The translations under genes were made by a program, and so were the position numbers. From Pedobacter caeni (lineage in GTDB: Bacteria; Bacteroidota; Bacteroidia; Sphingobacteriales; Sphingobacteriaceae), in contig NZ_FQUQ01000007.1 of assembly GCF_900129215.1 (NCBI RefSeq), positions 1 through 64,000 on the forward strand: 64,000 nt of DNA. Reading direction: 5' to 3'. Below, one piece after another: positions 2,776-58,278 of the stretch. Positions within the stretch are counted from its first letter, which is position 1, and each line of letters starts with the position of its first letter. The notes under the pieces are model-generated. The model ran no database searches. It was not told the origin of the DNA and saw only the letters and a list, made by a program, of their open reading frames with translations.

Positions 2776-5670
2776 ATGTTACGAGTAGATAGTTCTAAAC
2801 CCTGCAAAATTGTATACTCTTTATGTAAGCATGAGTTTTTCGGCTATTTGATCGAACCCCATATTGTTCAGTTGAACCCACAAGGTGATTTTTCATTGAC
2901 CTATCAGCGGATATTCTCGCATACGGCAAATGAATTCGCCAGACATTTAACCGAGAAAGACCTAAAGCTTATCAAAATCCTTGACGAGACCGAACAAGAT
3001 TTCATCATCAAGAAATACCATAAGAAGCCAATCCGCCCTGTTGAGTTCTTCAGTAAGTTTTTCAATGAGAAATTTTATGAAAGTGTGCGCCCGAAAATTG
3101 AGAAGAAACTTTCCGAGGTGTTAGAACTGATCAGAATAGATGGCGAGCTTTACCTGATGGACAGCGACGGCTGGCCTGCAGAGCGCAAAATCGAGCTTGC
3201 TGCCGAAGCCGCAACGGTCCTGTTTCATTTCAGACGCAATGCCATGGAAACCCGGTATTTTCCGACCATAAAATATCAGGGAATGCGAATAGATTTCATG
3301 TTTAAGGAAGCACAGGTGGTGAGCAACCAACCGGCCTGGCTCCTGCTAAATGACATGCTCTATTTCTTTGAGCAGGACATTGAAGGCAAAAAACTGATGC
3401 CTTTCCTGAATAAGCGATACATCACCATTCCCAAAGCAACCGAAGGCGCTTATTTCGAGAAGTTTGTAGCCCCATTGATCGAAAAATACCATGTTTATGC
3501 AGAAGGTTTCGAGATTAAAACGGAGAAACATGACCCTACACCGGTGATCAAAGTGATATATGTAGATTCAGGGATTTCACAACTGCAATTGTACTTCAAA
3601 TATGACACTCATGCCTTTGCCATGGGAAATGAGAAGAAAATAACGGTTCATTTAGAAAAAGAAGAAGACAATTACATTTTCACCAGGATCAAAAGAGATG
3701 CGGCATGGGAAAAACAAAAATTTGCGGTATTGACCAATCTGGGCTTAAAGAAAACCAGTCCGCTTTACCATAACCTCGAAGTACCACCAAATAAGGACGA
3801 AGATCAGTCTTATGCCATCATCAATTGGGTAAATGAGCACATTGAACAATTAGAAGCAGAAGGCTTCGAGATTGAACAGCATCAGGGTACTAAAAAATTC
3901 CTCTTTGCCACCAATAAAATAGATTTTGAGATCAAGGAAGATAACGATTGGTTTGACATCAATGCCATTGTTTATTTTGGCTCACATCCCATTCCTTTCA
4001 TCTCCTTAAAACAACATATCCTTCATAAAAAGAGGGAATTTACCTTGCCTGATGGTTCCATTGCCATCATTCCGGAAAAGTGGTTTACCCAATACGGCAG
4101 TTTATTCAGTCTCTCTGACGGAGGAAAAGCGCTAAAGTTAAAGAAACACCATATCGGCCTGATCAATGAGCTGGCAGAAGACGGAATTGCCAATGTTACC
4201 CTCAGCCGGAAACTGGAAAGGCTCAACGATTTTGAAAACATTGCCGACACTCAAATGCCGGTACACTTTAAAGGAGACCTGCGCAGTTACCAGAAAGCAG
4301 GTTACAACTGGTTCAGCTTCCTCAGGGAGTACAACTTTGGCGGATGTCTGGCTGATGACATGGGTTTGGGTAAAACCATTCAAACCCTGGCTATGCTTCA
4401 GAAAATCAAGGAAGAAGATGAGCAGAATTCCACAAAAAGCACTTCGCTGATTGTGATGCCCACCTCTTTGATTTACAACTGGCTAAATGAGGCCAAAAAG
4501 TTTACCCCAAAACTGAAGATTCATGCCCATACCGGAAGCTCCAGGAATAAAGATGTGAGTCAGTTTGCAAAATACGACATCGTCATTACCACCTATGGCA
4601 TTACGCGGGTAGACATCGACCTGCTTAAAGAATACTATTTCAATTATATCATTCTGGATGAGAGTCAGAACATCAAGAACCCTTCTTCCAAATCATTTAA
4701 AGCAGTAAGGGCACTTAAATCCAGACATAAACTGGTACTCAGCGGTACGCCGGTAGAGAACTCGGTGAGCGATCTATGGACGCAACTGACCTTCTTAAAC
4801 CCGGGTTTATTAGGCACACAGGCCTTTTTCAACGAAGAGTATGTGCAAGCCATAGAGAAAAGGAAAGACGAAGAGAAAGCACGTAAACTACAGGCCATCA
4901 TCAAACCTTTTGTATTGCGCAGAACCAAGGAACAGGTGGCCTCAGAACTTCCGGCAAAAACAGAACAGATCTTTTATTGCGATATGAGTGAAGATCAGGC
5001 TGCGTACTACGAAAAGACAAAATCTGCTTACAGGAATGACCTGCTGAGCAGTATGGACGATGGAACGTATGCTAAAAAGCAAGTGCAACTTTTACAGGGG
5101 CTAACGGCATTGAGACAACTGGCGAATCATCCGGTGATGATCGACGAGCAGTATACTTCTGATTCCGGAAAGTTTGAAAACGTGATCCATACGCTCGACA
5201 ATGTGCTGAAAGGCGGTCACAAGGTTTTGATCTTTTCTCAGTTTGTAAAACACCTGAACATCTTTAAACAGTATTTTGAGCAGGAATCCATCCCTTTTTC
5301 CTACCTCGATGGCGCCACAAAAAACCGTGGAGAGATCGTGGCAGAGTTTCAGGAAAATACGGATCTTAAAGTTTTCCTGATTTCAATTAAAGCGGGCGGT
5401 GTTGGTTTGAACCTGACACAGGCGGATTATGTATTCATTCTTGATCCATGGTGGAATCCGGCAGTAGAACAACAAGCCATTGACCGGACCCATAGAATCG
5501 GGCAGGAAAAGAAAGTTTTCATCTATAAATTTATCGCAAAAGATACGGTGGAAGAAAAAATCCTTGCTTTGCAGAACAGAAAGAAAAGACTGGCAAGCTC
5601 CTTAATTACTACGGAGGAAAGCTTCTTTAAGTCGCTCAGCAAAGAAGACATCAGGGAAATCCTGAACTAA
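2776..5670 (+). CDS. SNF2/SWI2-family DEAD/DEAH-box ATPase
   Basis: 964 residues. A ~500-residue Bacteroidota-type N-terminal region is followed by the two RecA lobes of an SNF2 translocase. Visible motifs are Walker A ADDMGLGKT (526-534), a DEAH-like DESQ box (628-631), SGTPVEN (motif III) and DRTHRIGQ (903-910, motif VI). Such proteins use ATP to move on duplex DNA and remodel nucleoprotein complexes. In bacteria they are linked to transcription recycling or DNA repair. The stop codon overlaps the convergent aat gene by four bases. The specific role is not known. Confidence 0.9.
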   Translation: MLRVDSSKPCKIVYSLCKHEFFGYLIEPHIVQLNPQGDFSLTYQRIFSHTANEFARHLTEKDLKLIKILDETEQDFIIKKYHKKPIRPVEFFSKFFNEKFYESVRPKIEKKLSEVLELIRIDGELYLMDSDGWPAERKIELAAEAATVLFHFRRNAMETRYFPTIKYQGMRIDFMFKEAQVVSNQPAWLLLNDMLYFFEQDIEGKKLMPFLNKRYITIPKATEGAYFEKFVAPLIEKYHVYAEGFEIKTEKHDPTPVIKVIYVDSGISQLQLYFKYDTHAFAMGNEKKITVHLEKEEDNYIFTRIKRDAAWEKQKFAVLTNLGLKKTSPLYHNLEVPPNKDEDQSYAIINWVNEHIEQLEAEGFEIEQHQGTKKFLFATNKIDFEIKEDNDWFDINAIVYFGSHPIPFISLKQHILHKKREFTLPDGSIAIIPEKWFTQYGSLFSLSDGGKALKLKKHHIGLINELAEDGIANVTLSRKLERLNDFENIADTQMPVHFKGDLRSYQKAGYNWFSFLREYNFGGCLADDMGLGKTIQTLAMLQKIKEEDEQNSTKSTSLIVMPTSLIYNWLNEAKKFTPKLKIHAHTGSSRNKDVSQFAKYDIVITTYGITRVDIDLLKEYYFNYIILDESQNIKNPSSKSFKAVRALKSRHKLVLSGTPVENSVSDLWTQLTFLNPGLLGTQAFFNEEYVQAIEKRKDEEKARKLQAIIKPFVLRRTKEQVASELPAKTEQIFYCDMSEDQAAYYEKTKSAYRNDLLSSMDDGTYAKKQVQLLQGLTALRQLANHPVMIDEQYTSDSGKFENVIHTLDNVLKGGHKVLIFSQFVKHLNIFKQYFEQESIPFSYLDGATKNRGEIVAEFQENTDLKVFLISIKAGGVGLNLTQADYVFILDPWWNPAVEQQAIDRTHRIGQEKKVFIYKFIAKDTVEEKILALQNRKKRLASSLITTEESFFKSLSKEDIREILN

Positions 5671-6299
5671 GTAGTGAGCATGGTATAATATTCTTCCCGG
5701 CTGATCATTAAAGCCCCCAGGCTCATCAAATGATCATTGGGCAGCTGACAGTCGATCAGTTTAAAGGCATTGGTCTGGCAAAGCCAGATCAATGCTGTTT
5801 TAGAAGCATTGCTCAGCAGGCTAAACATACTTTCCCCGCAAAAGACATCTCCGATCTGAACCCCGTAAAGTCCGCCACAAAGTTCTCCATCCTTCCAGAC
5901 CTCTACACTTTTCGCATAACCGTATTCGTGTAAGGCAATATAGGCTTCCTGCATTTCTGTAGTAATCCAGGTTCCGGGATTATCTTTTCTGCCCACCATT
6001 GCACAATTTCTGATGATTTCAGGAAAAGCCTGGTTATAGGTCACTTTAAAAACCTCATCCTTCAATACCTTTGCCATACTCTTGCTGATCTTTACCTGAT
6101 CGGGATAGATTACACAGCGCTCATGAGGGGAATACCAGCAAATAGGATCCTCTTCACTAAACCAGGGAAAAATGCCATGATGATAAGCTAAAAGCAACCT
6201 GTTGATGCTCAGATCACCACCTATTGCCAATAATCCATCCTCCTCAGCCAGTGCCGGATCGGGAAAACTGATCTCCTTTTCATCTAGTCTAAAAACCAT
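5667..6299 (-). CDS. aat: Leucyl/phenylalanyl-tRNA-protein transferase
   Basis: About 210 residues, the full family length. It opens MVFRLDEKEISFPDPALAEE and carries the hallmark segments AIGGDLS, GIFPWFSEEDPICWYSP, CGGLYGVQIGDVFCGESMFS and SNASK. Aat moves Leu or Phe from charged tRNA to the N-terminus of proteins bearing basic N-terminal residues, marking them for the N-degron pathway via ClpS/ClpAP. A start two codons upstream (6305) is possible. The start at 6299 matches the family opening better. Confidence 0.93.
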   Translation of the reverse strand: MVFRLDEKEISFPDPALAEEDGLLAIGGDLSINRLLLAYHHGIFPWFSEEDPICWYSPHERCVIYPDQVKISKSMAKVLKDEVFKVTYNQAFPEIIRNCAMVGRKDNPGTWITTEMQEAYIALHEYGYAKSVEVWKDGELCGGLYGVQIGDVFCGESMFSLLSNASKTALIWLCQTNAFKLIDCQLPNDHLMSLGALMISREEYYTMLTT

Positions 6300-6368
6300 A
6301 TGCAATAATAAAACAATACCTTTAATGTAACTAATCCTTCTTTATTTCATCTCAATTAAAAGCACATC

Positions 6369-6737
6369 ATGAATTTTATAGGCAATATTATCTGGATCAT
6401 TTTTGGGGGTATATTTATCTTTTTCGAATATATTATCGGAGGTCTGATCCTTTGCCTGACCATCATCGGCATCCCTTTTGGACTACAGTGCTTTAAATTT
6501 GCAATTGTCGGATTGGCTCCATTTGGCGTAAAAATCACGGATACCTCTTCCAATACCGGATGTCTTTCTACCATTATGAACATCATCTGGATTGTTTTTG
6601 GTGGTTTCTGGATTGCCTTAACCCATTTGTTTTTTGGCCTTCTTTTCTGCATTACCATTATCGGGATTCCTTTTGGCAGGCAACATTTCAAGCTGATGAA
6701 CCTGGCCTTTACTCCTTTTGGAAAATCCATCAGTTAA
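6369..6737 (+). CDS. yccF: YccF-family inner membrane protein
   Basis: 122 residues made of two similar halves, each with the pattern hydrophobic segment, ...TIIGIPFG..., then ...LAPFG or LAFTPFG (IIGIPFG at about 35-41 and 98-104). This duplicated arrangement is characteristic of YccF (DUF307) membrane proteins, whose function is unknown. The end overlaps the end of the convergent App1-like gene by four bases. Confidence 0.88.
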   Translation: MNFIGNIIWIIFGGIFIFFEYIIGGLILCLTIIGIPFGLQCFKFAIVGLAPFGVKITDTSSNTGCLSTIMNIIWIVFGGFWIALTHLFFGLLFCITIIGIPFGRQHFKLMNLAFTPFGKSIS

Positions 6738-7711
6738 AAACCGATCAATCCGATCTTTTTGGAATGTGCGATGGCTTCTTTGCTGTGGCTAAACAGGCAG
6801 GTTTTAATCCCTTTAGCTTCAATTTTAGCCAGGAGTTCCAGGGTCATTCCTGCCCTTGATTTACGGATATTTCTGATATAAACGGCTTCAATATTCTGAG
6901 GATACTTTTCTGCAATGGTCGCATAAATAAAAGGGTCTTTTTGAGAATTGTCTCCGAAAAAGACGAACTTCTGATTTGGAAAAGCATCCAGGATCCGCCT
7001 CACCCGCAGCAGTTTCCCCTCATGACCTGTTTTGCCGGTCTTGAGTAAGTCAGTCCATCGCTTGATCTGGTTCAGCAGAAATGCGCCTTCCGGTAATCCG
7101 TTAAACCTGAAGGTTTCTACCAGATAGTCGTACAGGTTCCATTCGCTGCTGGATACATAAAAAAAAGGATTGGGTTGTTCTGCATCCGTATGTGATAAGG
7201 CCAGTAAGCCATAATGCTTCTTTGCATCGACAAAAGTTTTCCTCGTTCTTGGGTTCTTAATGAAAAGCTCTCTGAGCCTCCTTCCGATCTTTGCGGAATA
7301 GGAAATCATTACGGTATCGTCGATGTCTGAAATGAAAGCATATTGGGTAATATGAGGCACATAGACCTTTCCTTCTGTCCTTGCCAGTACAGTATCTCCT
7401 TCTCCCAGGGCTTCGACTTTTACCTCATGCCATCCGGCAGCCACATTTTCCAGTGCTTTCCACTCAAATTTAAAAAAGCCATCATAGGCCGTTTTCTGAT
7501 GGACGATCTGCCCTTTAAAATCCAGACGAACCTTCACATAAGGTGCTGGTTTAACACTGAATAACCTGAGTAGGTGGACAATGTTCACAAATAAATTGTC
7601 GCTGTATACTTGTGTGGTCTTTGCCTTGAAATCAAACACATGCCCATAGAGCACCAGATTGTGCGTATGTCCATAGCCATGATATACCTTAACACTGGTA
7701 GAATTATTCAT
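6734..7711 (-). CDS. App1-family (DUF2183) phosphatase-like protein
   Basis: 325 residues. The central HAD-like motif FISDIDDTVM (about residue 125-134) is the catalytic DxDxT signature of the App1/DUF2183 family, whose yeast member is an Mg-dependent phosphatidate phosphatase. A further conserved segment, FVFFGDNSQKDP, lies in the C-terminal half. No signal peptide is seen. It is divergent from the neighbouring lipid kinase, with only 53 bp between starts, so both may act in phospholipid metabolism. That link is inference. Confidence 0.82.
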   Translation of the reverse strand: MNNSTSVKVYHGYGHTHNLVLYGHVFDFKAKTTQVYSDNLFVNIVHLLRLFSVKPAPYVKVRLDFKGQIVHQKTAYDGFFKFEWKALENVAAGWHEVKVEALGEGDTVLARTEGKVYVPHITQYAFISDIDDTVMISYSAKIGRRLRELFIKNPRTRKTFVDAKKHYGLLALSHTDAEQPNPFFYVSSSEWNLYDYLVETFRFNGLPEGAFLLNQIKRWTDLLKTGKTGHEGKLLRVRRILDAFPNQKFVFFGDNSQKDPFIYATIAEKYPQNIEAVYIRNIRKSRAGMTLELLAKIEAKGIKTCLFSHSKEAIAHSKKIGLIGF

Positions 7712-7764
7712 TGCTATTTAAAACAGAGTTAGGCTAAAGTTGTTTGTGATATTAAAGATTATCA

Positions 7765-8640
7765 ATGGGAAAAAGCAATTCAAGCCCGAAATTACTGTTT
7801 ATTGTAAACCCGGGTTCTGGAAATAACGAGATAGATTTTGCAGAAGCAATACGTACCTACTTTGAATCCGGAAACACGGACTTTGAGATTTATGAACTGT
7901 TTAAAGGCTGTAGCTTAGATAAATTACGATCAGTCATTACACAATCAAAGGCTGACCGGGTAGTGGCTGTTGGAGGAGATGGAACCTTAAAACTGGTGGC
8001 CGAATGTCTGGAAGGCATGGATATCCCTATCGGCATTATTCCTGCGGGATCAGCCAATGGCATGGCCAAAGAACTGGGGATTCCTCAGGAACTGGATGCT
8101 GCACTGGATCTGGTGGTAAATGGTCAGCCAAAAAAGATTCATGCAGTGAAAGTAAACGGAGAGCTGTGTATCCATCTTGCCGACATAGGTTTTAACGCCT
8201 ATATTGTGAAGAAGTTCGATGACTTGCCTCAACGCGGAATGTGGGGTTATACCAAAGCGGCCTGGAAAGTACTCTGGAACCATAGTAAAATGGAGGTAGA
8301 AGTTAAGATCAAGGATAAAACCATCCGCAGTCAGGCGGCAATGGTGGTGATTGCCAATGCCACTATGTATGGCACAGGGGTGAAGATCAATCCCGAAGGA
8401 GACCTTACTGACGATCTTTTTGAAGTGATTCTGGTGAAAGAATATTCGGTGATGGAAATCTTAAAAATCAGGTTTACCGACCTCCCTTTTAATCCTGAAA
8501 AGATCGAACTTTTTCAAACAAGAGACCTGAAGATCAAAACAAAGCGCAAAGTACATTTCCAGGTAGACGGGGAATATATGGGAAAAGTAAACCGTGTGGA
8601 AGCTTATATTCTTCCTGCAGCGATCACGATCATTGTTTAA
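7765..8640 (+). CDS. Diacylglycerol/lipid kinase family protein (YegS/BmrU type)
   Basis: 291 residues with the DAGK catalytic signature VAVGGDGTLKLV (about 67-78) and the GIIPAGSANGMAKEL nucleotide-binding loop. The N-terminal LLFIVNPGSGNNE motif is typical of the family. These cytoplasmic enzymes phosphorylate diacylglycerol or related lipids and recycle them into phosphatidate. It is transcribed divergently from the App1-like phosphatase. The lipid substrate cannot be told from sequence. Confidence 0.9.
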   Translation: MGKSNSSPKLLFIVNPGSGNNEIDFAEAIRTYFESGNTDFEIYELFKGCSLDKLRSVITQSKADRVVAVGGDGTLKLVAECLEGMDIPIGIIPAGSANGMAKELGIPQELDAALDLVVNGQPKKIHAVKVNGELCIHLADIGFNAYIVKKFDDLPQRGMWGYTKAAWKVLWNHSKMEVEVKIKDKTIRSQAAMVVIANATMYGTGVKINPEGDLTDDLFEVILVKEYSVMEILKIRFTDLPFNPEKIELFQTRDLKIKTKRKVHFQVDGEYMGKVNRVEAYILPAAITIIV

Positions 8641-25778: not shown

Positions 25779-26546
25779 ATGGACAATTATGAACAATCGT
25801 TCGATGTCTTGCAGTACAGATTAAAATCTGCAAGAAGAAAGAAACGATTACAAAAAAAGGATTTCGATAAGCAATTAATTCAAATCATTAAAAAGGAAAA
25901 ACTGCTTTGGCAAAAGAGACGTGAGTTACCGATGATTCCGCTTGAAACGCCCTATCAGAAAGGATGGAAACGTCATTTTGTGGTTCGGGAAGACATCAAA
26001 AGATCGCCTTCAGCCGGATTTTTCACTACGCTTTTAGAAAAGATCAACACGGTGCAACACCATCCGGATAAGTCTTTCAAAATAAAGAAGAGAAGAAAAG
26101 GCTCCCGCAAAAGAAGCAAAGGACATGAGGTTAGAAGACAGTTTCTGCAAGAGTTTTCTGAATGGTACTGGAACCACCATAGCTTAAAGCTGACGGAACT
26201 GGAGAAAGCGCATTTTCATTTATACGATAAGATGAGCAAAGATGGAAAATCAAAATGTTTTGTTTACCGGTTTAATGAGCCCTGGCGGTATGTATTGCAA
26301 GTAAAGCCCCACATGATCACTGAAGTGAAAATGGTGGACAGTCTTCTGGAACAGGAAATTCAACTGCTGAAAAATTATATTACAAACCATGATTTGCAGC
26401 GCAGAATGAACAAGATCACCGGAAGAGGATACAGCGTATATGGCTGGGGAGAAGAAGTAAAACCCCGTTATCGGATTCCAAAACGAAACCGCACATTATC
26501 CGCCCTAATGGAGGAATGTGCAAATGATGAACAACAACAATATTAA
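25779..26546 (+). CDS. Unknown highly basic protein encoded with RtcB
   Basis: 255 residues, not recognised. It is very rich in Lys, Arg and His, with basic clusters near the N-terminus (SARRKKRLQKKDF) and in the middle (KIKKRRKGSRKRSKG). There is a Trp/Tyr-rich segment (FSEWYWNHHSLKL) and a conserved-looking GRGYSVYGWGEE near the C-terminus. There is no signal peptide or membrane helix. It ends 5 bp before rtcB, so co-expression is likely and an RNA-binding or ligase-partner role is plausible. It is not archease or Ro60. Confidence 0.6.
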   Translation: MDNYEQSFDVLQYRLKSARRKKRLQKKDFDKQLIQIIKKEKLLWQKRRELPMIPLETPYQKGWKRHFVVREDIKRSPSAGFFTTLLEKINTVQHHPDKSFKIKKRRKGSRKRSKGHEVRRQFLQEFSEWYWNHHSLKLTELEKAHFHLYDKMSKDGKSKCFVYRFNEPWRYVLQVKPHMITEVKMVDSLLEQEIQLLKNYITNHDLQRRMNKITGRGYSVYGWGEEVKPRYRIPKRNRTLSALMEECANDEQQQY

Positions 26547-26551
26547 ACGCG

Positions 26552-27952
26552 ATGAGCATTTTAAAAACAAAAGAACTAAGTAAAATAGGTTATATCAATG
26601 ATAAAGCAAGAAGCCTGGTGATCAATACGATTGCTAAAAATTTCAAGCATCATACTAAAAACCAGATCATAGAATTATTAATCAATATTAAAAACACACC
26701 AGAGAATTATGTAGAAGACGAACAGCTCGGCAAAATTGCCGAAACATTTATGGATAAAGTAAAGGAGGTTGATTTCCAATCCTACCACCTGTTACAGGAA
26801 AGCGGAATGCTGAAGACGTATGGCAGCAAAGAGATAGAACATGGTGCAAAGAAACAAATGGAACTGGCCATGTCGCTTCCTGTTGTCACTCAGGGTGCTT
26901 TAATGCCGGATGCCCATAGTGGCTATGGATTACCAATTGGAGGTGTTTTGGCTACAGATAACGCGGTTATTCCTTACGCAGTTGGGGTAGATATCGGTTG
27001 CAGAATGGCCCTGAGCATTATAGATGAAGGTGATAGCTTTTTTAAGCGTTATAGTCACCAGATGAAAGTGGCATTAAGAGAACTTACGCATTTTGGAATG
27101 GAAGGTTCATTAGACATCCAGCCACATCATGATCTGCTCGACAGCCCTGTTTTTAAAGAAACAGAACTGCTGAAGAAACTGCATGCCAAGGCTTTCAGGC
27201 AACTGGGGACCTCTGGCAGTGGCAATCACTTTGTAGAGTTTGGCGAAATAGAATTGTATGACAACAATACACTGGGCTTGCCACCAAAGAAGTACATGGC
27301 CTTGCTGACGCATTCCGGAAGCCGGGGCTTAGGGGCTAATGTAGCGATGCATTATACCAAAATAGCCATGGATACCTGTAGGTTGCCAAAAGAAGCAAAG
27401 AGTCTGGCCTGGCTGGACATGAATACAGAGGCCGGTCAGGAATACTGGTTAAGCATGAACCTTGCAGGTGATTATGCCAGAGCTTGTCATGATGTGATCC
27501 ATTCCAGTCTATTGAAATCTTTAGGCCTGCAATCATTGGCAAAAGTAGAAAACCACCATAATTTTGCCTGGAAAGACAAGCTCGCTGATGGAAGAGAAGT
27601 GATTGTGCACAGGAAAGGAGCTACACCTGCACACCAGGGAGAACTGGGAATTATTCCCGGAAGCATGGCTACCGCAGCTTATCTGGTAATGGGTAAAGGG
27701 GTTGAAAATTCTTTACACTCTGCTGCACATGGGGCCGGAAGGGCAATGAGCCGCCAAAAAGCGAAGAACAACACCACGGCCTCCGCTTTGAAGAAAATGC
27801 TGGCCACTGCCGGCGTGACCTTAATTGGGGGAAGTGTAGAGGAAAATCCTTTGGCTTATAAAGACATCGAAAGGGTGATGTATGCCCAGAAAGACCTGAT
27901 CGAAGTACATGGGAAGTTCTTTCCTAAGATTGTACGGATGAACAGAGATTAA
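26552..27952 (+). CDS. rtcB: RtcB-type RNA ligase (copy 1)
   Basis: 466 residues with the complete RtcB active site: Asp147 and Cys150 (GVDIGCRM, Mn2+), GNH at 224-226, His254 (THSGSRG), the VENHHNFAW pair (His335/336) and the guanylylated His393 (AAHGAGR). RtcB joins RNA 2',3'-cyclic-phosphate or 3'-phosphate ends to 5'-OH ends using GTP and Mn2+, as in repair of nuclease-cut tRNA or rRNA. It follows the basic protein by 5 bp and ends at a strong terminator. It is a paralogue of the copy at 33005, not a recent duplicate. Confidence 0.95.
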   Translation: MSILKTKELSKIGYINDKARSLVINTIAKNFKHHTKNQIIELLINIKNTPENYVEDEQLGKIAETFMDKVKEVDFQSYHLLQESGMLKTYGSKEIEHGAKKQMELAMSLPVVTQGALMPDAHSGYGLPIGGVLATDNAVIPYAVGVDIGCRMALSIIDEGDSFFKRYSHQMKVALRELTHFGMEGSLDIQPHHDLLDSPVFKETELLKKLHAKAFRQLGTSGSGNHFVEFGEIELYDNNTLGLPPKKYMALLTHSGSRGLGANVAMHYTKIAMDTCRLPKEAKSLAWLDMNTEAGQEYWLSMNLAGDYARACHDVIHSSLLKSLGLQSLAKVENHHNFAWKDKLADGREVIVHRKGATPAHQGELGIIPGSMATAAYLVMGKGVENSLHSAAHGAGRAMSRQKAKNNTTASALKKMLATAGVTLIGGSVEENPLAYKDIERVMYAQKDLIEVHGKFFPKIVRMNRD

Positions 27953-27973: not shown

Positions 27974-28005
27974 AAAGCCGTCTTCTTTTTAGAGGGCGGC
28001 TTTTT
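27974..28005. terminator. Terminator between rtcB copy 1 and the WYL gene
   Basis: The hairpin AAAGCCG...CGGCTTT with wobble pairs inside, followed by TTTTT, lies at the convergence of the two genes. Confidence 0.85.
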
Positions 28006-29050
28006 ATGGTTTAAAGAATTCTTCTTTTTGATGTTCTTCCTTTTGATATCGCGCAGCAGCATCTTCCAGTCTTTTCCTGATCCTGGAAGCCAGGTTTCTT
28101 GGCCCCAGTACTTTCATGCATTCTCCAAAACCCAATATCTCCCGTTCCAGTTCAAAGTTCAGGACCACATCAATCCTGATGACAATGCCATCCTGATCCT
28201 CCTTTAACAGGACCTGACTATGGTGTAGTGGCTTTGTCAACACATAGGGCGCATTTCGCCTGTCTACTTTGAGGATCACTTTATGAGCCCGGTCCCGTTC
28301 CGATTTCGTTACGCCCAGTAAATCTTCAAAATAGCGGTCAAAATCAACGCCTTTGTATTCTACGAATGGTTCTTTAGTTAATTCCTGGAACTCCAGAATG
28401 CGATCGAGCGCCAAAGTAATCAGCGCCATACCTTTTCTTGGTTTTGCAATCAGAAACCATCGGTTCCTGTATTCTTTTAAGAGGTAAGGAAAATAAATAC
28501 TCTGCTGTGCCTTTAGTGCCTTGAAGGACTTATACTCAATCAGCAGTGGCACTTTATTCAGGATTGCACTATACAAAGGGGTAATAAATTTCAAGCCCCG
28601 GAGCTGTTTATTACTTTCAAACTGAATGCAGTTTTTGCTTTGATTGGTAGACTTATAGAGGTTGTTTTCCAGTTTAGCGATCATATCACTCATCTCATCA
28701 AAGTAACTAAAGCCGTTAAACTGCTTTAAAACGCCAACGATTTCCTTCATCTTCTCGATATCATTGTTATTGATCGGGGCCTTTGTAATGCTGTAATTAG
28801 GATCACTATACGCATAATACTTCCGGTCTGTAACGACAATAGGTGCATTATAGCCCAGCTTATCGCTCCTCATGATTTGAATATCTGATTGAACGGTCCG
28901 CTTACTTACTCCTGAGCTGATTCCTTGATATTCGAACAGCACTGCAGCAACCTTTTCGATCAGGTCGTCGAGGCTCCATTTCCGGAACCTGTTTTTTAAA
29001 CATTCATCAATGGTTTTGTAACGGATGAGGGCTAGTTTATTGATTGACAT
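28004..29050 (-). CDS. WYL-domain transcriptional regulator
   Basis: 348 residues. The N-terminal winged helix (about 15-75, SSGVSKRTVQSDIQIMRSD) precedes a WYL domain (about 160-225) in which YRNRWFLIA carries RWF in place of the eponymous triplet. A WCX-type C-terminal region follows. WYL proteins sense nucleic acids or nucleotides and control stress and defence genes. It is divergent from the tRNA-like/slipin/rtcB unit. Matching direct-repeat operators sit over both promoters, so it probably regulates itself and the repair unit. Confidence 0.88.
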   Translation of the reverse strand: MSINKLALIRYKTIDECLKNRFRKWSLDDLIEKVAAVLFEYQGISSGVSKRTVQSDIQIMRSDKLGYNAPIVVTDRKYYAYSDPNYSITKAPINNNDIEKMKEIVGVLKQFNGFSYFDEMSDMIAKLENNLYKSTNQSKNCIQFESNKQLRGLKFITPLYSAILNKVPLLIEYKSFKALKAQQSIYFPYLLKEYRNRWFLIAKPRKGMALITLALDRILEFQELTKEPFVEYKGVDFDRYFEDLLGVTKSERDRAHKVILKVDRRNAPYVLTKPLHHSQVLLKEDQDGIVIRIDVVLNFELEREILGFGECMKVLGPRNLASRIRKRLEDAAARYQKEEHQKEEFFKP

Positions 29051-29067
29051 CTGAAATTTCCTTTGTA

Positions 29068-29107
29068 TAAAAGTAACAAAAGCAATTGACTACGCAATGG
29101 AACTGCG
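29068..29107 (-). promoter_or_regulatory. WYL gene promoter with overlapping operator
   Basis: On the minus strand, ATTG (29098-29095), 19 bp, then TACTTTTA (29075-29068) resembles the housekeeping consensus. The -33 element lies inside ACTACGCAAT-N4-CTGCG (29089-29107), which matches the element at 29201-29219. Binding there should block or modulate the promoter. Confidence 0.6.
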
Positions 29108-29200
29108 CATTTTAAACAATCTTGTTGTTAATTCAGAATAAAATTAAAATTATCTACCTGATAATAAGCACAATGAAACAAATTCACATTATAAAAATCA

Positions 29201-29239
29201 ACTGCGCAATTGTGCTGCGTTATAGCCCCTGCATCTTTG
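29201..29239 (+). promoter_or_regulatory. Promoter and operator of the tRNA-like/slipin/rtcB unit
   Basis: ACTGCGCAAT-N4-CTGCG (29201-29219) repeats the element at 29089. Both have two CTRCG half-sites 13 bp apart. ATTG (29209-29212) within it, 19 bp, then CATCTTTG (29232-29239) forms a near-consensus promoter. Transcription would start near 29245, so the untranslated leader to the slipin gene is about 710 nt. Confidence 0.6.
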
Positions 29240-29415
29240 TAATGTCGATCACAACGACAAGTTCTTTGAATCATATCAGTACGTAAGTACTTAAAAATAT
29301 TCCCGAAAGGGAATGGCAATACTACATCATTAACGCCCGCAGTTGTGTGGTTTCTGTATGGCCCCAAAGTATGAGACAATTATGTTTTCATATCCTGGCG
29401 AATTAAGGATGATAG
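29240..29415 (+). ncRNA. 5' part of structured leader with GNRA-type hairpins
   Basis: No ORF is credible. Two hairpins with GNRA tetraloops stand out: AGTAC-GTAA-GTACT (29278-29291) and ATTCCC-GAAA-GGGAAT (29299-29314). They lie between the predicted transcription start and the first tRNA-like module, and fit a folded RNA better than coding DNA. Confidence 0.5.
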
Positions 29416-29498
29416 ATTGTCCACATGTTGTGTAACGCGGGTTCGAATCCCGCTCCCGGTTTCCGGGATAGCTTAGTCCGGTCAAAGCAACAACCAAT
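29416..29498 (+). ncRNA. Circularly permuted tRNA-like module (bacterial Y RNA-like)
   Basis: In order: ATTG-bulge-GTTGT (29416-29431), GTAAC, T-arm GCGGG-TTCGAAT-CCCGC (29437-29453), acceptor hairpin TCCCGG-TTT-CCGGGA (29454-29468), TA, D-arm GCTT-AGTCCGGTCA-AAGC (29471-29488), A, and ACAAC-CAAT (29490-29498). The outer strands pair GTTGT/ACAAC and ATTG/CAAT at the anticodon-stem position. T8, A14, G15-C48, G18G19 and T54T55C56 are all kept. This is the layout of YrlA-type bacterial Y RNAs, a tRNA with joined ends and an opened anticodon arm. Confidence 0.75.
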
Positions 29499-29570
29499 AT
29501 GCAGGTTCGAATCCTGCTTCCAACCAAAACTGGAATAGCAAAATGGTAATGCAATGGATTTAGGATCCAC
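29496..29570 (+). ncRNA. Second permuted tRNA-like module with an anticodon-like hairpin
   Basis: T-arm GCAGG-TTCGAAT-CCTGC (29501-29517), acceptor hairpin TTCCA-ACCAAAAC-TGGAA (29518-29535), TA, D-arm GCA...TGC with GG (29538-29552), A, then a hairpin TGGA-TTTAGGA-TCCA (29555-29569). A15 is matched by T at the position-48 equivalent (29500). The order repeats that of module 1. The outer strands hardly pair, so the module closes by a self-contained anticodon-like hairpin instead. It shares the CAAT strand with module 1, so the two folds may compete. Confidence 0.6.
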
Positions 29571-29955
29571 TTAGAAGAAGAGGAACTTCACAAACCCTCG
29601 CTGTTAAGCATTGGAGAAAAACATTCGGCTTAAAATCTGATCATCAGGAGATCAGGAATAAAGCAATCCAAAAGAGACTTTGAAAGTCCGAAACGGAAAA
29701 GAAGAATGTTGATTTGTCAAATATGCCATCCCCCCTGAGAACCGCTTCTGAAAAGGACGGATTGAAAGCAGGTAAAGCATCTTTAAAGATCAAAATATTC
29801 CTACCAGACGGAACTTCCGTATCCTTTGGAGGAATGTTTTTCAAAAATGCTTGTTAAAAAATAAAGAGAAAAGCTGCCGGAAGAATGGTCAAAGAGCGCA
29901 CCGTTCTTCCTGATGTCAGGAATAATAAATATTAAACCAACCAAAATTAAAATAT
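29571..29955 (+). other. Rest of the structured leader, with hairpins and one doubtful small ORF
   Basis: Visible hairpins are CTGATC-N7-GATCAG (29637-29655), GACTT-TGA-AAGTC (29676-29688) and a long one, GGAAGAATGGT/ACCGTTCTTCC with a 10-nt loop (29879-29910), which lacks a T-tail and so is not a terminator. A 44-codon ORF (29723-29857, starting MPSPLRTASEKDG) is open but unrecognised and may be chance. No separate promoter is seen before the slipin gene, so this stretch is probably its mRNA leader or a processed RNA. Confidence 0.45.
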
Positions 29956-31050
29956 ATGAAAAGAGTAACCATTAATACCAACTCTGTGGGGTTGGTTTAC
30001 AAAAACAGAGAATTTAAAAGAGTATTAACTGCCGGAAACTACTGGTTAGGATTTGGAGAAACTGTAGAAGTTTATGATCAGTCTAAAACTTTTATCGCTT
30101 CTACGGAGCTGGATGTACTGTTACAAAATAAAGATTTTTCAAACCTGGTACACCTGATAGAAGTAAAAGACAACACTTTGGTCTTGGTTTATCAAAATGA
30201 GAACTTCAAGCAGGTATTGACTGCCGGAAGGTATGCGTTCTGGATCGGGTTAAACAAATACTCCTTCCTGAATGCCGACCTGAACAAGTATGAGATCACC
30301 GAAAACATCGATAAAAGCACTTTATTAAAGCCCTTGATGCAGCCTTATGTCAGATCTTTCAGAATTGAAAGCTATGAAGCCGCTTTGATGATGGTTGACG
30401 GGAAGTTTGAGCAGGTCCTGGAAGTAGGAAACTACATCTGGTGGAACAACAGTACGTTGATCCAGGTGTTGAAAACTGACTTGAGACAACTGAACATGGA
30501 AATCGCAGGGCAGGAAATTTTAACCAAGGATAAAGCGCAGTTGAGAATCAACTTCAGTGTTCAGTACAAAGTAACAGATGCCATTAAAGCCCTGTTGGAA
30601 AACAAGGAATTTGAGAAACAACTGTATGTATTGATTCAGTTATCTTTAAGAGAATTCATTGGAAGGTTAACTTTTGATGAGTTGATGGAGAGCAAGGAAA
30701 AGATTGCAAATCATGTCTTGACCAGCTCCGCAGCGAATGCCGCGCTTCTGGGGATTGAATTAATCAACTGCGGATTGAAAGACATTATACTACCAGGTGA
30801 TATCAAAGAAATCATGAATCAGGTTTTGATTGCTGAAAAAAGAGCACAAGCCAACCTGATCACGAGAAGAGAGGAAACAGCCTCTACCAGAAGTTTGTTA
30901 AATACGGCAAAACTGATGGAAGATAATGCCATGTTGTATAAATTGAAAGAAATGGAATATGTAGAGAAGATTGCAGAAAAGATCAACACGATCAGCTTAT
31001 CCGGAAGCGGACAAATGATCGATCAATTGAAGCAAATCTTTGTTAAATAA
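29956..31050 (+). CDS. Soluble SPFH/Band-7 (slipin-like) protein with triple N-terminal repeat
   Basis: 364 residues. Three related N-terminal repeats have the pattern VYKNREFKRVLTAGNYW (about 8-33), VYQNENFKQVLTAGRYAFW (71-96) and MVDGKFEQVLEVGNYIWW (140-163). An SPFH domain follows (about 175-300, with NMEIAGQEILTKDKAQLRIN), then a coiled-coil-like tail. There is no N-terminal membrane hairpin, unlike classic stomatins, so a cytosolic oligomeric scaffold is likely. It is the first protein of the WYL-controlled unit, after the tRNA-like leader. Slipin-RtcB pairings are known from RNA-repair surveys. Confidence 0.82.
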   Translation: MKRVTINTNSVGLVYKNREFKRVLTAGNYWLGFGETVEVYDQSKTFIASTELDVLLQNKDFSNLVHLIEVKDNTLVLVYQNENFKQVLTAGRYAFWIGLNKYSFLNADLNKYEITENIDKSTLLKPLMQPYVRSFRIESYEAALMMVDGKFEQVLEVGNYIWWNNSTLIQVLKTDLRQLNMEIAGQEILTKDKAQLRINFSVQYKVTDAIKALLENKEFEKQLYVLIQLSLREFIGRLTFDELMESKEKIANHVLTSSAANAALLGIELINCGLKDIILPGDIKEIMNQVLIAEKRAQANLITRREETASTRSLLNTAKLMEDNAMLYKLKEMEYVEKIAEKINTISLSGSGQMIDQLKQIFVK

Positions 31051-31137: not shown

Positions 31138-31914
31138 ATGAAAACAACAATCGTAAATAAACTAAGTGCAATAGAGCAGGAGTACGATCTTAAAATACTC
31201 TTCTCTTGCGAATCAGGCAGTCGGGGCTGGCAATTCCCTTCGATGGACAGTGATTTTGATGTGCGGTTTATTTATATAAAACCGCTTAACCACTATCTTT
31301 CGATATTGGAAAGAACGGATCATCTGAGTTTTCCTATAAACGATGAGCTTGACATCTATGGATGGGACCTTCGTAAAGTGTTGAATCTATTGAGAAAATC
31401 TAACACGACTCCATTTGAATGGCTTCAATCTCCTGTTGTTTATGGAGAAGAAGCGGGATTCAAATCCAGGTTATGGCATTTATGTCAGGGTTATTTTAGT
31501 CAGCGGACTAATGCACACCATTACCTCGGCATCGCGAAAGGTGCAATGGATACGATCGTCAATGAGGATGAAATAAAAATAAAGAAGTTGTTTTATGTGC
31601 TTCGCCCTCTGCTTGCTGCCAAGTGGTGTTTAGAAAAGAATCAAATCGCTCCCATGGAGATAGGTCCTTTAATGGACCTGCTTCCAGATCATTTACATAC
31701 AATGGTCAGCGAATTGATCGTCTTTAAATCCACCGGAAAAGAAGGCACGATGATCAAAATACCAGTGCTACTGAAAGATTACATAGATCATGAATTTATA
31801 AACTGTACTGAAGCCGCCAAGGACCTGCCTAAAAATCAGTTTGATCTCGCAGGTCTGGATGATTTCTTCCTAAAAACAATAAATGAATATGACTATAAAA
31901 GACATAAAGGATAA
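31138..31914 (+). CDS. Pol-beta-type nucleotidyltransferase 1 (COG3541/YcgL-like)
   Basis: 258 residues. The minimal nucleotidyltransferase site GSRGW (27-31) with Asp37, Asp39 and Asp41 (MDSDFDVRFIY) is intact. A helical domain follows. COG3541 proteins are predicted to add nucleotides to RNA or small molecules, but few have been characterised. It sits between slipin and a second, related transferase that starts inside its 3' end (32-bp overlap). The context suggests processing of RNA ends before RtcB ligation. Confidence 0.82.
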   Translation: MKTTIVNKLSAIEQEYDLKILFSCESGSRGWQFPSMDSDFDVRFIYIKPLNHYLSILERTDHLSFPINDELDIYGWDLRKVLNLLRKSNTTPFEWLQSPVVYGEEAGFKSRLWHLCQGYFSQRTNAHHYLGIAKGAMDTIVNEDEIKIKKLFYVLRPLLAAKWCLEKNQIAPMEIGPLMDLLPDHLHTMVSELIVFKSTGKEGTMIKIPVLLKDYIDHEFINCTEAAKDLPKNQFDLAGLDDFFLKTINEYDYKRHKG

Positions 31915-32947
31915 AGGTTTGCTGCTCTTTGAGTGCGTCAGCGGAAGCCGGTCCTATGGACTCGAAACGGAAACCTCTGACACCGATCTGAAAGGCGTTT
32001 ATTATCTTCCCAAATCGGTTTTTTATGGGTTGACATATACACCACAGATCAGCAGCGAAAGCAACGATGAAGTATATTATGAGCTGGGCAGATATGTAGA
32101 GTTGTTGATAAAGAACAACCCCAACATGCTGGAAATGTTGGCTTCTCCTGAGGAAATGATCTTATACAAACATCCGGTAATGGACAAACTGAAGAGCAGT
32201 ATGTTTTTATCGAAACTATGTAAGGATACTTTTGCCGGTTATGCGATCACTCAAATCAGGAAAGCGAAAGGATTGAAGAAAAAGATCGTCAATCCGCTAC
32301 CCAAAGAGCGGGCAACGGTGCTGGACTTCTGCTTTATACTGGAAAGTTACCACAGTCTTAGCCTGAAAGACTGGTTAAAAAAGCAGGGATATCAGCAGGA
32401 ACAATGTGGTTTGATCAACATCCCGCATTCCAGAGGCGTTTTTGCCATGTTTTACGATCCGGAAGGAAAGTTTGGTTATAAAGGAATCGCAACGAATGCG
32501 TTTGCAAACGAACTGTCTTTATCGTCGGTACCTTCCGGAGAAAAAGAAGTTGCTTACCTGCAGTTTAACCAGGACAGCTATTCTTCTTACTGCAAGGAAT
32601 ACCGGGAGTACTGGGATTGGGTGGACAAGAGAAACGAAGAACGGTACCTGAATAACCTGGAACACGGAAAGGACTATGATGCGAAGAATATGATGCATAC
32701 AATACGCCTGTTGCAGGTTGCTGAAGAAGTGCTGCGATGCGGAGAACTCAGGATAAAAAGACCAAACAGAGCGGAATTGCTCGCTATAAAATCGGGGCAT
32801 TATTCCTATGCTGAGCTGCAAAAAATGGCAGAAGAACTGATTGGACAAATAGAGCAGGCCTACCTGGGAAGCAGTCTTCCCGATCAGCCTGATTACGATA
32901 AATTGGAAAATGTGCTCATAGAAATGAGAACGGAGTTATATCATTAA
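31883..32947 (+). CDS. Pol-beta-type nucleotidyltransferase 2 (COG3541/YcgL-like)
   Basis: 354 residues. Catalytic motif GSRSYGL (21-27) with Asp33 and Asp35 (TSDTDLKGVY), followed by a longer helical region (residues 120-350). It is a distant paralogue of the upstream transferase. It overlaps that gene by 32 bp in another frame. A second in-frame ATG lies at 31889. Two adjacent transferases may form a heteromer or act in sequence. Whether the substrate is RNA is inferred from neighbours, not shown by the sequence. Confidence 0.82.
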   Translation: MNMTIKDIKDKGLLLFECVSGSRSYGLETETSDTDLKGVYYLPKSVFYGLTYTPQISSESNDEVYYELGRYVELLIKNNPNMLEMLASPEEMILYKHPVMDKLKSSMFLSKLCKDTFAGYAITQIRKAKGLKKKIVNPLPKERATVLDFCFILESYHSLSLKDWLKKQGYQQEQCGLINIPHSRGVFAMFYDPEGKFGYKGIATNAFANELSLSSVPSGEKEVAYLQFNQDSYSSYCKEYREYWDWVDKRNEERYLNNLEHGKDYDAKNMMHTIRLLQVAEEVLRCGELRIKRPNRAELLAIKSGHYSYAELQKMAEELIGQIEQAYLGSSLPDQPDYDKLENVLIEMRTELYH

Positions 32948-33004: not shown

Positions 33005-34429
33005 ATGAAAACTATATTAAATGGAAATGACCTCATTGAAAATGGTTATATCCCTGGAAAAATACTCGGGCTTGCATTAAGTCTGGTTGAAAATAAATTT
33101 GAAGAATTAAACAAAGAACAGCTGATCGCATTACTACAGGAAGTAAAAGCAAAACCGGAACAGTTTATGGACCATGAGATCCTGGAAGAACTGGCAACAG
33201 CCATCATTGAAGAAGCTTCGGCACCAGCAGATGAAACCATTTCCTTATCAAAACAAGCGATAGCTTATCGCATATATGGTGGAGACCAAATAGAAAATAG
33301 TCCAAGAATGCAAATGGATATTGCGATGAGACTACCCATAAGTGTTGCCGGAGCATTAATGCCGGATGCACATCATGGATATGGCTTGCCAATAGGAGGT
33401 GTTTTAGCGACGCGTAATGCGATTATACCTTACGGTGTAGGTGTAGACATTGGTTGTCGAATGGCGCTGTCTGTATTTGATATTTCGGAAAGTCATTTCC
33501 ATGAGCATGAAGCACAATTCAAGAAAGAACTGATTGCACATACCAGGTTTGGCGCAGGACGTGGTTTTATTGGTCGATACAGAGCAGATCATGAAGTACT
33601 GGAACGGGATGAGTTTAACCTTACTCCGATGATCAAAAACCTGCACGATAAAGCTTATGATCAATTAGGAAGCTCGGGAGGTGGAAATCACTTTGTAGAA
33701 TGGGGGATCATTGAATTTGAAAAAGACGATGTAGTTTTAAATATTTCCAGGGGAAAATACGTTGCTCTACTGACACATTCAGGTTCAAGGGGTCTTGGAG
33801 CGACAATCGCCGGACATTATACCAAATTGGCTAAAGATTTATGTAAACTTCCAAAAGAAGCAGCAAATCTTGCCTATCTGGACATGAATTCCGAAGCTGG
33901 ACAAGAATACTGGCTGGCCATGAACCTTGCAGGAGACTATGCTTCTGCCTGTCATGAAGTAATTCATAAAAGACTGACTAAAGCGATCGGTGCAGAGGTA
34001 CTGGCCCGGGTAGAGAACCACCATAATTTTGCCTGGAAAGAAATCTGGAACGGGGAAGAAGTGATTGTTCACCGTAAGGGGGCTACTCCTGCCGGCAAAG
34101 GGGTGATGGGAATTATTCCAGGCTCTATGACTGCACCCGGTTTCCTTGTCCGCGGAAAAGGAGAAACTGCCGCGATCAACTCTGCTTCTCATGGGGCAGG
34201 AAGATTGATGAGCCGAACAAAAGCCATTCAAAACATCTCTAAAAAGCGGATGAGCGATAGCTTAAGGGAACATGGAGTTACCTTGATCGGTGCAGGATTA
34301 GATGAAGCTCCTATGGCTTATAAAGACATCAACCTGGTGATGGACGCTCAAAAAGAACTCGTTGATGTAGTGGCCAGGTTCAGTCCGAAGATTGTCCGTA
34401 TGGCCGATGACGGAAGCCGTGAAGACTAA
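33005..34429 (+). CDS. rtcB: RtcB-type RNA ligase (copy 2)
   Basis: 474 residues with a full RtcB active site: Cys151 (GVDIGCRM), His229 (GGGNHF), His258 (THSGSRG), VENHHNFAW (His339/340) and nucleotidylated His396 (ASHGAGR). It is the last gene of the unit tRNA-like RNA, slipin, two nucleotidyltransferases, rtcB. It is clearly homologous to copy 1 but diverged through the N-terminal 90 residues and the 180-210 region, which contacts RNA. The two may serve different broken RNAs. A terminator follows directly. Confidence 0.95.
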   Translation: MKTILNGNDLIENGYIPGKILGLALSLVENKFEELNKEQLIALLQEVKAKPEQFMDHEILEELATAIIEEASAPADETISLSKQAIAYRIYGGDQIENSPRMQMDIAMRLPISVAGALMPDAHHGYGLPIGGVLATRNAIIPYGVGVDIGCRMALSVFDISESHFHEHEAQFKKELIAHTRFGAGRGFIGRYRADHEVLERDEFNLTPMIKNLHDKAYDQLGSSGGGNHFVEWGIIEFEKDDVVLNISRGKYVALLTHSGSRGLGATIAGHYTKLAKDLCKLPKEAANLAYLDMNSEAGQEYWLAMNLAGDYASACHEVIHKRLTKAIGAEVLARVENHHNFAWKEIWNGEEVIVHRKGATPAGKGVMGIIPGSMTAPGFLVRGKGETAAINSASHGAGRLMSRTKAIQNISKKRMSDSLREHGVTLIGAGLDEAPMAYKDINLVMDAQKELVDVVARFSPKIVRMADDGSRED

Positions 34430-58199: not shown

Positions 58200-58278
58200 T
58201 TTGTTGGTTGTTTAGATTGTCCTTACTCTTTTCAGGGTTTTCAGGGTTCCCCTTTTTATAGGTATAAAATTTGGTTTA

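Follow-up and report, generated by a model that had tools for sequence, protein, structure and literature searches.

A predicted structured RNA with two tandem circularly permuted tRNA mimics at a slipin and RNA-repair locus of Pedobacter caeni

Bacterial Y RNAs of the YrlA type carry a tRNA-like domain in which a T-arm, a capped acceptor hairpin and a D-arm follow one another in permuted order, the ends of the chain leave through the position of the anticodon stem, and the RNA is encoded with RNA-repair genes. In the Salmonella rsr-yrlBA-rtcBA operon, for example, such a tRNA mimic is encoded together with RtcB. RNA-repair systems have reportedly been surveyed by Burroughs and Aravind. The tRNA-like domain of YrlA is described as a substrate of tRNA modification enzymes (PMC8394870) and as a possible competitive inhibitor of an anticodon nuclease, an idea that is thus not new (PMC7790460). 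A further comparison is offered by Anabaena, in which a tRNA operon (trn) is released under stress and rtcB and a slipin gene stand under repression by TrcR; the locus numbers of these genes are distant, and the accessible part of the report mentions no WYL domain and no tRNA-like RNA (PMC10272220).

The window analyzed here is a stretch of 64,000 nucleotides of Pedobacter caeni (contig NZ_FQUQ01000007.1, positions 1 to 64,000). The original prediction placed a Y RNA-like tRNA mimic within a WYL-SPFH-RtcB locus that also encodes a nucleotidyltransferase, and Pfam matches to WYL, Band_7, RlaP and RtcB bear out this gene content, with both RtcB and RlaP proteins present. Compared with the Salmonella operon, WYL stands in for RtcR, slipin and RlaP stand in for Rsr and RtcA, and many relatives carry tRNA genes as well. 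The features of the locus, in window coordinates, are the following.

25779-26546, plus strand: 255-aa protein, possibly an island member; no Pfam or NCBIfam match
26552-27952, plus strand: RtcB RNA ligase, copy 1, on the far side of WYL (Pfam RtcB, 262.8 bits)
28004-29050, minus strand: divergent WYL/WCX-domain regulator (Pfam WYL 35.2 bits, WCX 42.8 bits)
29093-29109, minus strand: operator-like TGCGCA-N7-TGCG on the WYL side (pattern scan)
29203-29219, plus strand: operator-like TGCGCA-N7-TGCG on the RNA side (pattern scan)
29232-29239, plus strand: CATCTTTG, putative end of the RNA promoter (pattern; start site putative)
29243-29259, plus strand: hairpin TGTCG..CGACA, presumed 5' end of the RNA
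29261-29269, plus strand: boxA-like GTTCTTTGA at the presumed 5' end (pattern)
29339-29398, plus strand: 5' module of two hairpins (RNAalifold, 50 sequences, covarying pairs)
29427-29494, plus strand: unit 1, predicted permuted tRNA mimic inside an outer helix (sequence, comparative alignment and folding)
29501-29569, plus strand: unit 2, predicted permuted tRNA mimic with T-arm, capped acceptor, D-arm and anticodon arm (sequence and comparative folding)
29580-29599, plus strand: hairpin after unit 2 (RNAalifold, 21 close relatives)
29606-29852, plus strand: 3' domain, its ends joined in a long-range helix between 29606-29626 and 29832-29852 (sequence pairing)
29956-31050, plus strand: slipin (SPFH; Pfam Band_7, 97.5 bits)
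31138-31914, plus strand: RlaP nucleotidyltransferase (Pfam RlaP, 238.3 bits)
31883-32947, plus strand: second, divergent RlaP-like protein (Pfam RlaP, 85.4 bits)
33005-34429, plus strand: RtcB RNA ligase, copy 2 (Pfam RtcB, 277.9 bits)

Read from the sequence, unit 1 runs in the order T-arm, capped acceptor hairpin, T8/A9 and D-arm. The T-arm consists of GCGGG (29437-29441), a TTCGAAT loop (29442-29448) and CCCGC (29449-29453), the acceptor hairpin of TCCCGG (29454-29459), a TTT loop and CCGGGA (29463-29468), and, after T8 and A9 at 29469-29470, the D-arm of GCTT (29471-29474) and AAGC (29485-29488). The outer helix pairs GTTGT (29427-29431) with ACAAC (29490-29494), and the unit is without an anticodon arm. 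Single-sequence folding of unit 1 yields the permuted arrangement with an energy of -25 kcal/mol and a z of -2.58, an equally good fold arising in 2 of 200 shuffles, and the strong evidence for this predicted structure is comparative. The permuted order that had been proposed for 29416-29498 is recovered both by direct reading and by de novo RNAalifold of 52 aligned sequences. The proposed outer GTTGT/ACAAC pairing likewise holds, with compensatory change in all 4 of its 4 scored pairs and 96.6% pairing. A further ATTG/CAAT extension, also proposed, is not kept among 21 close relatives (20 belong to the same genus as the window, L006 to another): it occurs strictly in 2 of the 21, the window counted, and a match of at least 4 bp near the site occurs in 7 of the 21, several of these in shifted register.

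Directly downstream, unit 2 presents a T-arm (GCAGG-TTCGAAT-CCTGC, 29501-29517), a 5-bp acceptor (TTCCA/TGGAA) with an 8-nt loop followed by TA, a D-arm (GCA/TGC) with GG in its loop, and an anticodon arm (TGGA-TTTAGGA-TCCA, 29555-29569) with a 7-nt loop of the kind found in tRNA-Leu(UAG). Because these arms follow one another in that order, unit 2 is a nearly complete tRNA whose chain has been rotated, with the break in the variable loop. It folds weakly on its own (z -1.46; 17 of 200 shuffles are as good). The original prediction of a single Y RNA-like mimic therefore stands as regards permuted tRNA mimicry and falls short as regards number and extent: two units lie in tandem, the second with an anticodon arm, within a longer structured stretch, and the predicted interval of 29416-29498 takes in unit 1 and misses unit 2, the 5' module and the 3' domain.

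To place the two units in a comparative setting, slipin homologues provided 18 close loci from 151 family genomes and the best 80 of at least 576 loci in named genomes, giving, with the window's own copy, 99 listed loci, or 93 distinct ones after 6 duplicates. Locus L036 (Pedobacter sp. PF22-3) matches L003, from the window's genus, without a difference across the 300 bases compared. At least one unit was called within 1 kb upstream of slipin in 88 of the 93 distinct listed loci (two units in 69, one in 15, three in 3 and four in 1, some chance far-upstream matches included); within 650 nt, 69 listed loci have two or more units and 19 have one, the first 'unit' of at least one of these 69 (L094) being the end of a tRNA-Tyr. 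As for the loci without a called unit, L107 is matched at 108.7 bits by R1, a covariance model built from the tandem pairs, L097 starts too close to its contig end for judgement, L061 has a worn upstream region without an intact unit, L052 carries a plain tRNA-Tyr in place of the unit, and in L051 no unit was found upstream of slipin, R1 included. A MAFFT alignment of 52 tandem pairs from 50 listed loci, similar ones removed (L020 and L092 contribute two rows each), was folded de novo with RNAalifold, which recovered the permuted structure, outer helix and anticodon arm included. Conserved structure with compensatory changes in related loci had been set in advance as the check, and compensatory change is found in 33 of 37 base pairs. 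Paired cells amount to 94.0%, compared with 70.7% in shuffled alignments (0 of 500 as high) and 41-48% in slid ones. The predicted structure is thus well supported, as are its occurrence in tandem and its link with slipin. On this comparative evidence the DNA at about 29243-29852 is conserved as a structured RNA, built around a core of two circularly permuted tRNA mimics in tandem. Neither of two slipin queries found a match in 50,697 phage records.

The two units differ in their equipment across loci, as tallied by a mechanical parser in the 69 listed loci with at least two units called within 650 nt. An outer helix of at least 4 bp is present in 66 first units compared with 10 last units, and an anticodon arm with a 7-nt loop is present in 52 last units compared with 9 first units. 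Among 59 anticodon arms tallied from last and single units, a few of them doubtful by eye, U33 occurs in 50 and a purine at 37 in 49, a conservation that could be inheritance from tRNA rather than selection, and positions 34-36 take 23 different triplets. Acceptor loops of 4 nt are found in 38 of 69 first units (15 GNRA, 2 UNCG) and 16 of 69 last units (5 GNRA, 4 UNCG). Since the acceptor loops are small and partly of GNRA or UNCG type, a free tRNA-like 3' end is unlikely for the units.

Together with the 5' module, which lies about 85 nt ahead of unit 1, and the 3' domain, found in close relatives, the structured stretch comes to about 600 nt. The helix corresponding to the closure of the 3' domain covaries in the 21 close relatives; in the window it is composed of AAGCATT/AATGCTT and GAAAAACATTC/GAATGTTTTTC. 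Upstream, CATCTTTG is a putative promoter end and GTTCTTTGA presumably resembles the boxA of ribosomal leaders. In 44 of 88 listed loci TTCTTTGA stands no more than 350 nt from the first unit, and a promoter scan of 29000-30000 returned 2 sigma-70-like sites against 3.0 expected, which is not above chance. Terminator-like stems number six in the same interval, where 0.6 would be expected, and three of the six are on the RNA strand. The final one of these three (29814-29832) places its T-run within the 3' strand of the long-range helix, and the RNA could therefore end ahead of slipin. Between the WYL gene and slipin, the plus strand contains no open reading frame reaching 80 aa. Directly ahead of slipin, a strong hairpin at 29879-29910 (GGAAGAATGGT/ACCGTTCTTCC) is seen, among the 21 close relatives, only in the window and L032.

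R1 was run on 395 Bacteroidota genomes and gave a match at E<=0.001 in 385 of them; the E-value alone does not separate these matches, because tandem tRNA genes resemble R1. In each of the 16 best matches (94.8-134 bits), the window among them, slipin follows on the same strand at a distance of a few hundred bases, a tie that is partly expected among kin of the slipin loci from which R1 was built. The RNA is therefore patchy in its distribution, with about one genome in 25 reaching this level. Of thirty R1 loci retrieved, 16 are slipin loci and 13 overlap with ordinary tRNA genes in tandem; the remaining one (L143, 68.1 bits) is a YrlA-like RNA with a Ro60 gene about 1.2 kb away. In the window's own genome R1 scores 134 bits at the window and 45.4 bits at the next best site. 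Of 15 further matches, 2 were excluded as repeats or near-repeats of alignment rows, and the remaining 13 (L127 and L129 being mutually close) have a similarity below 0.8 to every model row. De novo folding of these 13 sequences restores unit 1 in full and, from unit 2, the T-arm and the anticodon arm, with compensatory change in 20 of 29 pairs; the acceptor and D-arm of unit 2 are not drawn in their consensus fold, and single rows display both by eye.

Among the best 80 of at least 576 slipin loci, window queries found a divergent WYL gene upstream in at least 41 and RlaP in at least 15, and RtcB lies downstream in at least 58 (at least 54 of the 71 with a 4 kb right flank). Neither RlaP nor RtcB thus looks obligate; slipin was the search bait of that set. 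The 255-aa protein at 25779-26546 is basic, lies beside RtcB copy 1 and has homologues in 5 of the same best 80 of at least 576 loci (L064, L077, L093, L100 and L102). The operator-like TGCGCA-N7-TGCG occurs three times in the window, two of them between WYL and the RNA, against 0.05 expected from shuffles; the whole genome holds 4 copies, as does the reversed control, so the motif alone is unspecific. With both orientations counted, 41 of 88 listed loci have it in the 1.5 kb ahead of slipin, compared with 17 sites in the other 690,901 bases of these loci, or about 0.04 per 1.5 kb. It also stands at the Ro60 loci of all 6 genomes examined out of 11 seen with TROVE, and its presence at both kinds of locus suggests that Ro60/Y RNA units and slipin islands may share a kind of regulator. 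A DUF805b RNA (RF02914, 37.9 bits) lies elsewhere in the window, at 58220-58254 on the minus strand.

We see an even chance that the RNA is a stress-induced tRNA mimic made with slipin, RlaP and RtcB and acting as a decoy or docking platform, its transcription and mechanism being what we infer from the locus. Under stress, release of the WYL repressor would switch on the RNA along with slipin, RlaP and RtcB, to which many relatives would add spare tRNAs. With its acceptor end closed the RNA would not be chargeable, and would therefore most likely offer a tRNA-shaped surface to enzymes that cut, modify or mend tRNAs. It could serve as a decoy for anticodon nucleases, and/or as a docking platform gathering RlaP and RtcB on a slipin scaffold, RlaP being predicted to restore lost nucleotides ahead of ligation (PMC7824862). 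The RNA would then act in the manner of a Y RNA, with something other than Ro60 as its partner. More tentatively, and with doubt outweighing confidence, we suggest that it represents a new RNA class of tandem circularly permuted tRNA mimics, one with a freely changing anticodon loop, that would act across several phyla and independently of Ro60 as replaceable bait and platform in slipin-scaffolded tRNA repair or replacement. A literature search, confined to titles, abstract starts and limited reading and with the main Y RNA papers outside it, found no description of this RNA, and within that search a tandem, Ro60-free form bearing an anticodon arm seems to be new. The findings indicate that Y RNA-type tRNA mimicry is apparently not tied to Ro60 and link it to slipin, making testable the idea that tRNA mimics shield cells from tRNA-cutting toxins or organize RNA repair.

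The main rival, which we consider possible and rather unlikely, is a cis-acting leader: the units would form an operator on the slipin mRNA, bound by a tRNA-binding protein of the operon (or cut by an anticodon nuclease), and damaged tRNAs would compete for that protein and raise expression. The upstream, co-oriented position of the units, seen in the 16 best genome matches, fits such a leader just as well as it fits a decoy or platform, and the anticodon loop of unit 2 links the core to the 3' domain, so that a cut there would presumably split the transcript. However, 386 nt separate the end of unit 2 from the slipin start in the window, with the 3' domain in between, and the 5' and 3' modules resemble a free-standing RNA. 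A leader would also accord with tRNA-like pieces ahead of slipin genes in other phyla. Slipins from E. coli, Citrobacter, Burkholderia, Photobacterium and Subdoligranulum records align over most of the protein at 30-41% identity. Their leaders contain a T-arm and hairpin without a clear D-arm, behind a sigma-54-like site (E. coli and Citrobacter), a T-arm and hairpin (Subdoligranulum), linear tRNA-like modules scoring 54.1 and 46.4 bits with the tRNA model (Photobacterium), or linear tRNA-like modules with an anticodon arm loop of about 3-5 nt (four Burkholderia records). R1 scores of 56.6, 31.2, 22.9, 20.0 and 17.2 bits on L158, L157, L156, L154 and L155 prove nothing alone because ordinary tRNA pairs reach the same range, and the occurrence of such putative pieces in five genera of two other phyla is suggestive. 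The slipin-nucleotidyltransferase operon of E. coli and Citrobacter (L154:6690-8922 and L155:4960-8913) is accompanied in Citrobacter by a divergent rtcR. The E. coli copy is chromosomal and occurs in 1624 of 5426 complete genomes (1621 with most of it), and its leader could make the question accessible in a convenient model organism, provided that its tRNA-like piece is real.

A true Y RNA that has lost its Ro60 partner, surviving as a relic or serving PNPase alone, is a quite improbable reading. The check proposed with the original prediction was a search with YrlA covariance models, and YrlA (RF02553) is indeed the top-scoring Rfam match of the region, covering 29412-29519 at 41.7 bits (E 1.1e-7 in a 911-base scan), below the gathering cut-off of 69. 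The Ro60-linked YrlA-like RNA of the same phylum also scores below it, at 44.6 bits, a similarity that favours this reading, while a sub-cut-off score is weak evidence. A permuted tRNA-like module of YrlA type is present, as judged from the Rfam match and covariation. Unlike YrlA, however, this RNA has two tandem units, the second bearing an anticodon arm, adjoins slipin with no Ro60 gene, and has an outer helix of 4-5 bp only, with no conserved pairing beyond it and no long outer stem found. The absence of Ro60 originally noted for the window extends to the whole genome (7.83 Mb, 99.93% complete), in which no TROVE match was found. TROVE was also not found in the other 18 family genomes with a close slipin, is present in 9 of 151 family genomes, and occurs in one (G206, some 32 kb away) of 15 further genomes with a top R1 match. 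Strong covariation extends over many genera that mostly lack TROVE (1 of 34 genomes carrying the RNA or its close slipin), contrary to what a relic would imply. In the Ro60-linked counterparts in the phylum, L143:1290-1597 and L153:1341-2858, a YrlA-like RNA and further partial stretches of Y RNA type come after a Ro60 gene, and TGCGCA-N7-TGCG stands ahead of both; the L143 RNA folds with a longer stem, its own fold not being significant (z -0.80).

Circularly permuted tRNA genes of algae and archaea resemble the units in having the 3' half ahead of the 5' half, and the four arms and plausible anticodon of unit 2, with an RNA ligase gene nearby, would suit maturation through a circle joined by RtcB and opened at the acceptor loop by RNase P and Z. 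Circle-based maturation is described for algae and some archaea, with a 1-nt intervening sequence reported in one archaeon (PMC3978253). We nevertheless hold this to be very improbable and disfavour a full permuted tRNA gene on the parse of 69 last units: acceptors parsed at 4-8 bp mostly appear to depart from tRNA length (at least 7 bp in only 16 of the 69), loops of 3-4 nt in 21 of the 69, often tetraloops, leave little space for a normal 3' end, unit 1 is without an anticodon arm, and the units lie in tandem within a longer structure with no sign of maturation. Decayed tandem tRNA genes with structure by chance, a reading that gains from ARAGORN finding 0 tRNA genes in the 64-kb window, from ordinary tRNA genes near this position in relatives and from ordinary tandem tRNA genes matching R1 at up to 90 bits, are scarcely credible and are contradicted for the set as a whole by compensatory changes in the permuted and not the linear acceptor pairing.

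A linear tRNA reading was likewise rejected: the Rfam tRNA match at 29465-29521 (30.3 bits) spans both units, and linear acceptor pairing barely exceeds chance (60.4%, compared with 57.2% in shuffled alignments; 17 of 500 shuffles pair as much, and 69 of 500 reach its covariation score). Ordinary tRNA genes lie upstream of slipin in 32 of 74 listed loci, with 154 on the strand of slipin and 1 on the opposite strand, a count that leaves out two calls overlapping parsed units, of which that of L094 is probably a true tRNA. As a raw count, U35 is present in 78 of the 154 same-strand genes. This would be in keeping with a stock of tRNAs whose anticodons are liable to be cut. In one locus (L087), twenty tRNA genes are called, 19 of them within 4280-8635, flanking slipin on both sides.
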